DNA of 46,785 nt from a virus. A model generated the notes under the pieces. The model ran no database searches, was not told the DNA's origin, and saw only the letters and a list, made by a program, of their open reading frames with translations. Position numbers and translations under genes: made by a program. The DNA lies in the IMG/VR virus record IMGVR_UViG_3300028610_000454, positions 1 through 46,785 of that record; one strand, given 5' to 3'. Positions 15,184 to 46,785 of the stretch are shown here, in pieces (position 1 is the stretch's first letter; the number at the start of each line of letters is the position of its first letter).

Positions 15184-15945
15184 CTAAGTCCCTTGCTCAA
15201 GTAATTCTTTCAGCTTGTCTCTTAAGTCCTTACAGGTTCGCTCCCAATCGCGCCAGTTGCATCTTCCTTTTTTCCAATCTTCAAAAGCATCGATAACGTG
15301 TCGCCACAAATCTATGCCGCCGCCATAGCCACATCTATAAATAGTGGTTTTCCCAAGGACACAATGGCTACATTTCATATCGTTGCCGTAAACTCTTTTG
15401 TAATAGTGACATAAGCCACAATGAGTAGAAAGAAAAATATAACCCTTTGTTCTTTTGTATTTCGCTCTCAATTCCTTAGCCGTAGCCGTATAAAGCTGAT
15501 TCCAATGCTCGTAAGAGACTTCCAGTGCGCCTTTGGCCGTCTTTGACCTACGCTTGATTTGGGATATTGTTAGCCAACGCATCATTTTTTTTTTCTCCAA
15601 AGATTTTATCTGTTCCAAAAATAGTCCGGCGTATTTCATGCGGGCGCGGGGGGTTTTGGCATCTTCCCACATCAGAAACGGCTTATCATTTCTGGCATAT
15701 ATATTGGCACAAAAGCCATATACAGTATAATACGGACAAGCATAATTACATTCACTAATCGATTGGGGTAATCGTTGCTTCCTATTATTGTAAAGACAAA
15801 GCCAGCACCAATGAGCATCATTAAGTCCTTTGCAATCTTTGTATTTCTCCCATTCCGGCCAATCCTCTTTCTTCTTCCCCGTCTCAGCCAGCCATTCCCA
15901 AAGAGCAATACACAATTCAATAGCTTTTTTTCTTGTTAATCGCAT
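15184..15945 (-). CDS. Cys-rich protein: two paralogous genes fused through an A10 run, 253 aa
   Basis: Two similar halves each carry a C-x2-C cluster set (WCWLCLYNNR...CNYACPYY...FC; HCGLCHYYKR...CSHC...YRCGYGG) and a Trp-rich tail. The junction, on minus TTGGAG then ten A then TGATG (T run 15594-15585 on plus), holds a good ribosome site and ATG ATG at 15585. With nine A the first half would end at TGA overlapping that start as ATGA, the usual junction here. So it is either a true fusion, transcript slippage, or a one-base assembly error. The second half alone would be 15184-15585. GGAGAAAACA precedes the ATG at 15945. Confidence 0.7.
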   Translation of the reverse strand: MRLTRKKAIELCIALWEWLAETGKKKEDWPEWEKYKDCKGLNDAHWCWLCLYNNRKQRLPQSISECNYACPYYTVYGFCANIYARNDKPFLMWEDAKTPRARMKYAGLFLEQIKSLEKKKMMRWLTISQIKRRSKTAKGALEVSYEHWNQLYTATAKELRAKYKRTKGYIFLSTHCGLCHYYKRVYGNDMKCSHCVLGKTTIYRCGYGGGIDLWRHVIDAFEDWKKGRCNWRDWERTCKDLRDKLKELLEQGT

Positions 15946-15971: not shown

Positions 15972-16143
15972 CAGAGACGGGCAGGATACCTTTCAGTAGA
16001 GCCTACCGTTAGCGTGAGCGGGTGGGATTTGAACCCGAATATGCACTATTCCACCAGAATAGAAAATACATACTCTACACGACCTCCAGCTTTCTGGGCT
16101 GGCGAGCTACCATACTGCTCTACCGCCCACGCCGCCGTCTCTG
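15972..16143 (-). ncRNA. tRNA-like cloverleaf with hairpin inserted in the T arm, in an mRNA leader
   Basis: On minus: outer stem CAGAGACGG/CCGTCTCTG (16143-16135 with 15980-15972), then acceptor-like GCGTGGGCGG/CCGCTCACGC (16132-16123 with 16021-16012, 10 bp, one G-U). TA is followed by D arm GAGC-AGTATGGTA-GCTC, anticodon-like arm CCAGC-CCAGAAA-GCTGG (AGA, with C instead of T at position 33), AGGTC, and T loop GGG-TTCAAAT-CCCAC. The T-stem 5' strand is interrupted by a 39-nt hairpin (16075-16037). No CCA is encoded. A functional tRNA is unlikely; a tRNA mimic or decayed tRNA in the leader of the gene at 15945 fits better. Confidence 0.65.
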
Positions 16144-16146
16144 TAT

Positions 16147-16506
16147 TTAGTTGTCAAGAGAGCTACTTAGTCGGCTTGTATTGCAGGTCATTATCCACAA
16201 TGCCTTGCCATATTTCGGGCGTGTAATCAAAAGCCCTTTCGTCTGGCATCCATTTGTAAGAAATGCTATTGCCATTTTTCTTGTATCATTCTCATTTTTG
16301 GCCTCAAAACCGATAGGCAATGAGGTATCTTCTTCGGATCGCCATTTGTATTTTGATAATCGAGGATAATCTTCAGCATCGACAATTGCAAACTTGCCTT
16401 GTGTGAGTGGAATAAACCGGCAGAAGGGCGCAGAGTCAGCCGAAGAAGTTGATATACGCCCCCTGACGGTTATGTGCCGTTGATTTGGTTTTTTGGGTGG
16501 TATCAT
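16147..16506 (-). CDS. HNH/AP2-type homing endonuclease fragment lacking the HNH core, 119 aa
   Basis: Residues about 32-56 (FIPLTQGKFAIVDAEDYPRL, SKYKWR) are the conserved N-terminal block of phage HNH endonucleases with AP2-like domains. The expected HNH catalytic part is missing, and the C-terminal third is unrelated. It looks truncated or diverged. Its start codon lies in a 12-bp perfect helix (16509-16520 with 16433-16444). First gene after the promoter at 16559-16587. Confidence 0.6.
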   Translation of the reverse strand: MIPPKKPNQRHITVRGRISTSSADSAPFCRFIPLTQGKFAIVDAEDYPRLSKYKWRSEEDTSLPIGFEAKNENDTRKMAIAFLTNGCQTKGLLITRPKYGKALWIMTCNTSRLSSSLDN

Positions 16507-16520
16507 TTTTCGGCTGACTC
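16433..16520 (-). promoter_or_regulatory. Long hairpin enclosing the start of the HNH-fragment gene
   Basis: On minus GAGTCAGCCGAA (16520-16509) pairs perfectly with TTCGGCTGACTC (16444-16433). Nested within are TGATA/TATCA, CCxCC/GGGGG and ACGG/CCGT pairs. The only ribosome-site-like GGAG and the ATG at 16506 fall inside the stem, so translation should be repressed while it is folded. Confidence 0.65.
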
Positions 16521-26437: not shown

Positions 26438-26866
26438 CTAACTGAAGTCCACCGGCGCCCCAACCGATGGGTTAAGCGAAGTCCATGTTATTGTCGGAGT
26501 ACCAGTGGCGGTAACCTCGAAATACTTATTCTTGCCCACGAAAAATGATATGAAAGCATCGTTGGCAACATTGCCCTGAACAGTCGTCTGTGCCACTTTC
26601 GTACCAGCGCCAGCAGGGTCGCTTGTAGCTCCAACATATCCAATCAAAGCAGCCTGGTCGTTTAAGCTAAAAGCAGTAACGAATCCAGAACCTTGAGCTT
26701 TGTAGGCGTGAACTTTTAGCATTGCATTAGCTTCTGAATCGAGAAGTGTGGGGCTACCACCGTCCGTTATGTCGTGCTTACCATCCGTTTTATGTTCAAC
26801 GGCAAGATACGCAAGCATCTTAGTATTCCAGTCTGTAGCACCATTCGCAGGCCATTGTGCGCACAT
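26438..26866 (-). CDS. Virion-type hypothetical protein, 142 aa
   Basis: Low-Cys, Ala/Gly/Thr-rich beta protein (AQWPANGATDWNTKMLAYL...GKHDITDGG) resembling tail-fibre modules. Lies between the HNH gene and the detached gp12-like C-terminal part, so it may be a fibre or adaptor on the nozzle. Family not assigned. Confidence 0.6.
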   Translation of the reverse strand: MCAQWPANGATDWNTKMLAYLAVEHKTDGKHDITDGGSPTLLDSEANAMLKVHAYKAQGSGFVTAFSLNDQAALIGYVGATSDPAGAGTKVAQTTVQGNVANDAFISFFVGKNKYFEVTATGTPTITWTSLNPSVGAPVDFS

Positions 26867-42265: not shown

Positions 42266-42303
42266 TTTTTCTTCTGCTTGTGTTATCATAATATTTCAGG
42301 GCA

Positions 42304-42343
42304 ATAAAAAAAGGCAAGTCGTGAGTTAGCACTAACTTGCCTT
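42304..42343 (-). terminator. Terminator upstream of the large terminase gene
   Basis: On minus AAGGCAAGT (42343-42335) pairs with ACTTGCCTT (42319-42311), with an inner GTTAG/CTAAC hairpin, then a run of T (42312-42306). It separates the small genes 42401-46362 from the head and tail genes, so readthrough or an unseen promoter must supply terminase expression. Confidence 0.8.
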
Positions 42344-42400
42344 AATTTATTCTTACGTCAACCAACCCCTGCCGGTTCGGTTGAACCCATTATTTAATTG

Positions 42401-42694
42401 TCAAACTATACTAATATTTTGCCACTTTGCATACAAATCTTTGTCAACTGGTATATAAAATTCCGGATAAGGAATTTTCTTAATAGAACTATCCTCGTGT
42501 ATAACATAAGCGGGGTATTTCAAGTAATCCATCGCCATCTTTAATCTTATATCTTCTAATTTTTTCTGTGCCTCTTTGTCAAATTCCTTAACGTGCAGAG
42601 GAGGAATATTCGCACCGACAGCCTTTGGCACAACCGTTGCAAACACCCCTGCGACAAAACCCGTTACTGTCTTAAAGAAATTACGCCTGTTCAT
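42401..42694 (-). CDS. Predicted Tat-exported protein, 97 aa
   Basis: MNRRNFFKTVTGFVAGVFATVV carries a twin-arginine motif (RRNFFK, residues 3-8), a moderately hydrophobic core and an AVGA cleavage-like site near residue 28. The mature part of about 70 aa is charged with no known domain. Tat signals are rare in phage proteins; it would export a folded protein through the host Tat system. AGGATAATAAA precedes the chosen ATG; a TTG further upstream is rejected. Confidence 0.7.
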   Translation of the reverse strand: MNRRNFFKTVTGFVAGVFATVVPKAVGANIPPLHVKEFDKEAQKKLEDIRLKMAMDYLKYPAYVIHEDSSIKKIPYPEFYIPVDKDLYAKWQNISIV

Positions 42695-46641: not shown

Positions 46642-46785
46642 CTCTTTTTCGCTCTACGTTGTCTATAAAAAAACAAAGGCCAGCACAACAACCTTTGCAA
46701 AAAAGAGTGGTGCTGACCTTGTTCGTAATAGCAGAGACAGGAGTCGAACCTGTAATCTCCTGCTTATGAGGCAGGCAAGTTACCA
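46642..46785. repeat. Right copy of 144-bp terminal direct repeat
   Basis: Exact copy of bases 1-144. It cuts the tRNA gene short at its 5' end (minus strand), so the complete tRNA is read only at the left end. Joining the ends gives a non-redundant length of 46641 bp. Confidence 0.95.

Follow-up and report, generated by a model that had tools for sequence, protein, structure and literature searches.

The locus and its surroundings

The window, the whole stretch of 46,785 nucleotides that was analyzed (IMG/VR record IMGVR_UViG_3300028610_000454), is a complete circular phage genome with a direct end repeat of 144 bases (positions 1-144 and 46642-46785). Most of its genes lie on the minus strand; a PF12236 head-tail connector and a gpA-type terminase are encoded. 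A tRNA-Met gene is situated near the end repeat, and 90 bases at that tRNA are 100% identical in the related genome G003. A 15-nt inverted repeat (GAGTCAGCCGAAGAA/TTTTTCGGCTGACTC, 58 nt apart, window 16433-16520) is found at the start of the minus-strand ORF 16147-16506, which looks like a piece of an HNH/AP2-type endonuclease and has no Pfam or PHROG match.

The element studied here occupies positions 16143-15972 and was presented in a preliminary description, with no strand given, as a tRNA mimic that carries a hairpin in its T arm and lies within an mRNA leader. The whole feature lies on the minus strand, where a complete tRNA cloverleaf is present with its T stem broken by a 42-nt hairpin. 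The D, anticodon-like and T-loop elements named earlier were all found. Read 5' to 3' from 16157, the features follow in this order:

16157-16144, minus strand: promoter-like motif TTGACAACTAAATA, ending directly before the outer stem
16143-16136, minus strand: outer stem, 5' strand CAGAGACG, from the minimum-energy fold; compensatory changes in 2 of 8 pairs among homologues
16133-16123, minus strand: extended acceptor stem, 5' strand, 11 nt; tRNA positions 1-7 read TGGGCGG; 2 of 11 pairs changed on both sides
16120-16104, minus strand: D arm, GAGC-AGTATGGTA-GCTC; A14, G15, G18G19 and A21 kept; 2 of 4 pairs compensatory
16102-16086, minus strand: anticodon-like arm, loop CCAGAAA (16097-16091) with C at position 33; 2 of 5 stem pairs compensatory
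16085-16078, minus strand: variable loop AGGTC and T-stem positions 49-51 (GTG), from the Rfam alignment and homologue comparison
16077-16036, minus strand: 42-nt hairpin insert between T-stem positions 51 and 52; fold z = -5.0 for the insert alone
16035-16022, minus strand: T-stem positions 52-53 (GG), T loop TTCAAAT and T-stem 3' strand CCCAC, from the Rfam alignment and homologue comparison
16021-16011, minus strand: acceptor stem, 3' strand CCGCTCACGCT, without a CCA end, from the fold and homologue comparison
16007-15980, minus strand: bulged hairpin 3' of the tRNA, GGYAGG-CUC-NNNN-GAAA-NNNN-U-CCUGCC, stacked on the outer stem
15979-15972, minus strand: outer stem, 3' strand CGTCTCTG, from the fold and covariation
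15955-15952, minus strand: Shine-Dalgarno GGAG, from the sequence
15945-15184, minus strand: downstream gene, 253 aa from the ATG at 15945, without a known family

The outer stem (CAGAGACG/CGUCUCUG) joins 16143-16136 to 15979-15972; of the 9 bp first assigned to it, 8 form in the minimum-energy fold and the ninth, a G-C pair, is possible. The acceptor stem (GGCGUGGGCGG/CCGCUCACGCU), earlier taken to be 10 bp long, has 11. The insert, reported correctly as a 39-nt hairpin at 16037-16075, measures 42 nt (16036-16077) if defined as the piece whose removal restores GTG+GG/CCCAC. The C at position 33 and the missing CCA were confirmed in the loop CCAGAAA and at the 3' end, as was the position just before a ribosome site, with GGAG at 15955-15952 and the next ATG at 15945. 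The fold of the whole element (-74.9 kcal/mol) was more stable than that of shuffled sequences (-55.3 ± 3.9 kcal/mol; z = -5.0).

Homologues of the element

Two further distinct homologues were identified in three IMG/VR contigs (L066, and L072 with L079); the member set comprises four metagenomic contigs and three distinct sequences. L066, a 29-kb phage contig found by a pattern that kept the odd anticodon loop, shares with the window its outer stem, long acceptor, anticodon-like loop (CCAGAAA), T loop and GAAA hairpin; AAGGTG and an ATG follow, and the T stem has no insert. L072 and L079, found by a second pattern (T loop plus hairpin), come from two data sets and do not differ within the element. 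Between T-stem positions 51 and 52, where the window has its insert, both carry a hairpin of 37 nt with an unrelated sequence; their anticodon-like loop reads CTGAAAA. Outer stem, 11-bp acceptor, tRNA core, 3' GAAA hairpin, Shine-Dalgarno and ATG are common to all members, and the conserved unit measures 145-186 nt in the three distinct phage sequences, which are 84, 75 and 85.5% identical outside the insert.

Hairpins of unrelated sequence at the same site in two members, and none in L066, indicate that the T-stem hairpin is an optional expansion helix recurring at one site and make an assembly error a poor explanation. A homologue with an uninterrupted tRNA had been named in advance as the sign of such an artefact. 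The T stem of L066 is indeed uninterrupted. L066, however, differs from an ordinary tRNA, and because a separate lineage also carries an insert, the interruption is not explained by faulty assembly. The idea that the insert loop CTGGTGG poses as a second anticodon was dropped because that loop is not conserved among homologues. A kissing interaction between the anticodon loop (CCAGAA) and the insert loop (UUCUGG) was also rejected; the two are complementary in the window, but the corresponding loops of L072 (CUGAAAA and UGCGGU) are not.

Three further pattern scans of viral contigs returned no members beyond L066, L072 and L079, the rest being tRNA genes or unrelated stretches, and a pattern for the same motif with an interrupted T stem had no matches in viral contigs. 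The element was present in none of the relatives found via portal and capsid genes (G003 and G006 are without it). BLAST against phage and plasmid records gave partial matches only, and the named phage matches were mostly tRNA-Met genes. Literature searches found no published description of such an RNA. The members apparently constitute a small, undescribed family of tRNA-derived phage RNAs.

Covariation in the stems

When the structure read from the window was applied to the three distinct sequences, 98.4% of 129 pair cells were standard pairs. The preliminary description had proposed covariation among homologues as a check, and it was found: 12 of 43 pairs were changed on both sides (two each in the outer, acceptor, D and anticodon stems, one in the T stem and three in the upper GAAA hairpin), a count drawn from three distinct sequences only. 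When the partners were slid by 1-3 columns, pairing fell to 37-46% and such double changes were seen in 0-1 pairs; the shuffle control takes no account of relatedness. In the 3' hairpin the CUC bulge and the GAAA loop are invariant, while 3 of the 4 upper-stem pairs are compensatory across the three distinct sequences. RNAalifold, to which no structure was supplied, returned the same fold with 50 pairs, 14 of them compensatory, some of these lying in the insert helix, a part that could not be aligned with certainty. Unconstrained single-sequence folds recovered 40, 42 and 35 of the 43 consensus pairs. A covariance model scored the members at 171-212 bits, a match by construction as all four rows were used in building it; tRNAs and other matches in other loci reached at most 49 bits. 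From the sequence comparison we conclude that the structure is under selection.

These data bear on the suggestion that the locus holds a decayed tRNA, a pseudogene with a chance insertion. Such an origin would suit the tRNA-Met ancestry, the C33 and altered anticodon, and the odd loop common to L066 and the window. It fails because covariation is seen in the stems (12 compensatory pairs across the outer, acceptor, D, anticodon, T and 3'-hairpin stems) and because parts foreign to a tRNA, the hairpin and the outer stem, are conserved as well; the insert, moreover, recurs at one site. Unless the alignment is misleading, covariation already refutes a pseudogene, and we give it almost no weight.

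Resemblance to tRNA

The Rfam tRNA family (RF00005) matched the element at 35.6 bits (cut-off 29) with a long insertion, and was the sole match among 4227 Rfam families at E up to 1; no family covered the whole element. The ARAGORN check suggested earlier gave a divided answer. No tRNA was called in the intact window sequence at default settings, but removal of the insert in silico yielded a good 77-nt tRNA, 'Ser(aga)'. L066 was called tRNA-Ser. Tools that find tRNAs may thus overlook such RNAs, as in the window, or label them ordinary tRNAs, as in L066.

Residues U8, A14, G15, G18, G19, G26, C48, T54, T55, C56 and A58 are all kept and are identical in the homologues. Like these core tertiary positions, the stretch from the D arm to the variable loop links the element to phage elongator tRNA-Met genes (RF00005), to which it is nearly identical there; compared with the tRNA-Met in MT839459, a phage record from the human gut, only loop positions 33-36 of the anticodon arm are different (TCAT to CAGA). 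The sequence indicates that an elongator tRNA-Met gave rise to the element, which has ceased to be a tRNA. As in a functional tRNA, the cloverleaf scores above the family cut-off. Unlike a functional tRNA, and unlike phage tRNA-Met, the element has no uninterrupted 5-bp T stem (the 42-nt hairpin lies between 51 and 52, and the T stem is broken in 2 of the 3 distinct members). U33 and the anticodon have been replaced, and no anticodon is conserved (CCAGAAA in the window and L066 vs CTGAAAA in L072/L079). CCA is absent, and in place of a free end there is an 11-bp acceptor closed by an 8-bp covarying outer stem, with a conserved hairpin on the 3' side.

RNase P is inhibited when the 5' leader pairs with the 3' RCCA (PMC9433436), and the continuous pairing of leader and trailer in the element should likewise hinder the enzyme. 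Since neither the anticodon nor U33 is conserved and processing should be impeded in this way, the functional form is probably the unprocessed RNA; selection on the outer stem and GAAA hairpin also implies that the unprocessed RNA is what matters. The recruitment of RNase P that had been proposed is unlikely, given the continuous pairing of leader and trailer with the acceptor; recruitment of a synthetase finds no support in an RNA whose anticodon varies and which lacks a free CCA end. The more general proposal, a tRNA-like regulator, fits. We are confident that the element is a conserved, non-translating RNA derived from a tRNA.

A working tRNA from which the insert is spliced as an intron would explain why removal of 42 nt gives a perfect T stem and a tRNA call by ARAGORN. 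Archaeal tRNAs with introns at noncanonical positions can have a cloverleaf interrupted in the T stem in the same manner, and when 84,980 genomes were scanned with a pattern for T-stem insertions, a single archaeal tRNA with such an insertion came up, the other matches falling on or beside ordinary tRNA genes. No other genome match of that scan, bacterial included, was an interrupted tRNA. Archaeal-type splicing was considered and rejected: the bulge-helix-bulge is relaxed, G-U-rich and confined to the window, stands in the wrong register and would not restore the T stem, and none was found in L072; 0.6% of shuffles have a bulge-helix-bulge near the insert boundaries. The intron-like insertion put forward at the outset therefore fails, as there is no convincing or usable bulge-helix-bulge, the recurrent inserts share no sequence kinship and the host side looks bacterial. 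The element also differs from archaeal intron tRNAs in its extra conserved domains, and C33, an anticodon AGA in the class I frame, the lack of CCA and the closed acceptor count further against splicing, which we regard as exceedingly improbable.

Promoter-like motif and the early region

The motif TTGA[CA]AANTNAATA lies directly upstream of the element in all members and ends at the outer stem. Exact copies number 3 in the window, 1 in G032 and 3 in G033, compared with means of 0.08, 0.02 and 0 in first-order simulations, and they are always on the coding strand. No sigma-70 minus-10 sequence was found at the right distance after the motif. The motif may act as a promoter.

The early genes behind the element are shared, in the same order, by the window, G032 and G033. 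Their proteins are mostly 31-50% identical to those of the window, with methyltransferase segments at 64-71%, compared with 75-86% identity for the RNA outside its insert. A tblastn search with the window structural proteins detected no homology in the partial contigs G032 and G033; G033 has a connector of the same PHROG as that of the window. The first gene behind the element differs in each phage (253, 32 and 87 aa, mutually unrelated), and for the 253-aa gene of the window no relatives and no known family were found. An ATG and a Shine-Dalgarno sequence (AAGGTG and AAGGAG in the homologues) lie at most about 30 nt behind the element in all three.

Other copies of the motif also precede folded RNA. 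The second copy in the window (7712-7699, minus strand) stands before a strongly folded leader (about 7698-7530, outer stem GCTGGCGG/CCGCCAGC) with no Rfam match. Next come a hairpin, GGCAGGGGCGGATGAGACTGACTCGTGCCTCTGCC, which the relative G003 (L015, about 716-776) conserves with some base pairs altered, and a Shine-Dalgarno sequence. The third lies upstream of the terminase gene (42290-42404, minus strand), with a terminator-like hairpin (AAGGCAAGT..ACTTGCCTTTTTTT) within about 90 nt; this region is possibly a small RNA or an attenuator. In G033 (26520-26731, minus strand; L107) three copies in a row precede a folded RNA, then a tRNA-Met with the loop CCCATAA (C33), then the element.

Possible functions of the element

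That the RNA is conserved at a putative 5' end, is followed by different genes and lies shortly before a Shine-Dalgarno sequence suggests a general leader. Our preferred reading, at about even odds, is a tRNA turned into a 5'-leader RNA that aids the translation or stability of early mRNA; action in cis is the most likely mechanism, although we put it slightly below even odds. Transcription would start at the outer stem. Leader and trailer, paired continuously with the acceptor, would hinder RNase P and CCA addition, and the unprocessed element would stay in the mRNA as its 5' end. The element would then be a 'cis-tRNA' leader of natural origin: its tRNA-shaped fold just upstream of the Shine-Dalgarno sequence could help ribosome loading, and closure of the 5' end could shield the early mRNA. 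In the laboratory, tRNA-like leaders or tRNAs placed upstream of a Shine-Dalgarno sequence raise translation 2- to 6.3-fold, whatever the length of the variable loop (PMC9142559). By sequence position, all members have the tRNA-like fold upstream of the Shine-Dalgarno sequence and ATG. In computed folds, removal of the outer 5' strand lowered Shine-Dalgarno accessibility weakly (0.56 to 0.27, 0.52 to 0.40 and 0.27 to 0.21).

Several points count against a cis-acting leader. Phage genes are densely packed, so a gene close behind the element is expected anyway; sequence conservation, unpaired loops included, exceeds what a mere stability leader needs; the effect on Shine-Dalgarno accessibility is weak; the members comprise three distinct sequences only, and the element is missing from G003 and G006; and the T-stem helix of two members might disturb ribosome docking. 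The main rival is a trans-acting decoy, a processing-resistant mimic of the tRNA core and anticodon stem that would tie up a host factor binding tRNAs, such as an anticodon nuclease induced by infection or some other defence protein that reads tRNAs. A decoy would account for a complete tRNA core in which anticodon and U33 vary, and for an RNA with its own promoter-like motif and no tie to one downstream gene; phage tRNAs with anticodon-loop mutations have been proposed to escape anticodon nucleases (PMC10264068). However, no terminator was called directly behind the outer stem, a Shine-Dalgarno sequence and gene follow in every member, the neighbourhood shows no defence link, and the GAAA hairpin and outer stem are left unexplained. 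We judge a decoy unlikely.

Less likely still is a leader acting on transcription, an RNA that opens the early transcript and counters termination or pausing in cis. The element heads the early region beside a promoter-like motif in three phages, and HK022 put, which acts on RNA polymerase, sets a precedent for a structured RNA at the start of phage early transcription (PMC9378689). Against this, the role needs no tRNA core, and no sequence or structural resemblance to put was noticed. To our knowledge no tRNA core has been described in put.

For the cis-acting leader, the closest tested precedent is the yjdF riboswitch, whose aptamer takes a tRNA-like fold (PMC9142559). Element and riboswitch share a tRNA-like four-way junction upstream of the Shine-Dalgarno sequence, an apparent tRNA ancestry and a cis position (PMC9142559). 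The element differs in that it has no Rfam match to the yjdF model and stems from tRNA-Met rather than tRNA-Lys. It is closed by an outer stem, carries a second hairpin (with a GAAA loop) and, in some members, a helix in the T stem, and was found only in phage contigs. An off state of the yjdF type, with the T loop paired to the Shine-Dalgarno sequence, was not seen in the computed folds; there, the Shine-Dalgarno sequence can lie opposite the outer stem's 3' strand, with weak effect.

GOLLD and other large phage-linked RNAs are structured noncoding RNAs that occur in phages or prophages near tRNAs. They are far larger than the element, which has no Rfam match to them. RNAs of this kind are a topic of PMC12286853.

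We tentatively propose an undescribed class of phage RNA: a tRNA taken over as the 5' domain of early mRNAs, to which an outer clamp, a hairpin with a GAAA loop and, optionally, a helix within the T stem were later added, and whose tRNA shape would control early gene expression. The element would be a clear case of a virus turning a tRNA gene into a regulatory or protective RNA, with steps that can be read in the homologues: the anticodon lost, the ends locked, domains added and the T stem opened for a new helix. If cis-acting, it would be a natural counterpart of the laboratory result in which a tRNA upstream of a ribosome site boosts translation, and would make testable how phages use the tRNA shape at the head of early mRNAs.

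Other tRNAs with additions in the T stem

The archaeal tRNA returned by the genome scan (Caldarchaeum; L025:278-382, plus strand) carries a T-stem insertion that is likely an intron. A phage tRNA-Met on a 138,862-bp contig (L166:12253-12329, minus strand) seems to hold a short extra piece in its T stem, GTCTCAAACGG before TTCAAAT, roughly at the site of the window insert.
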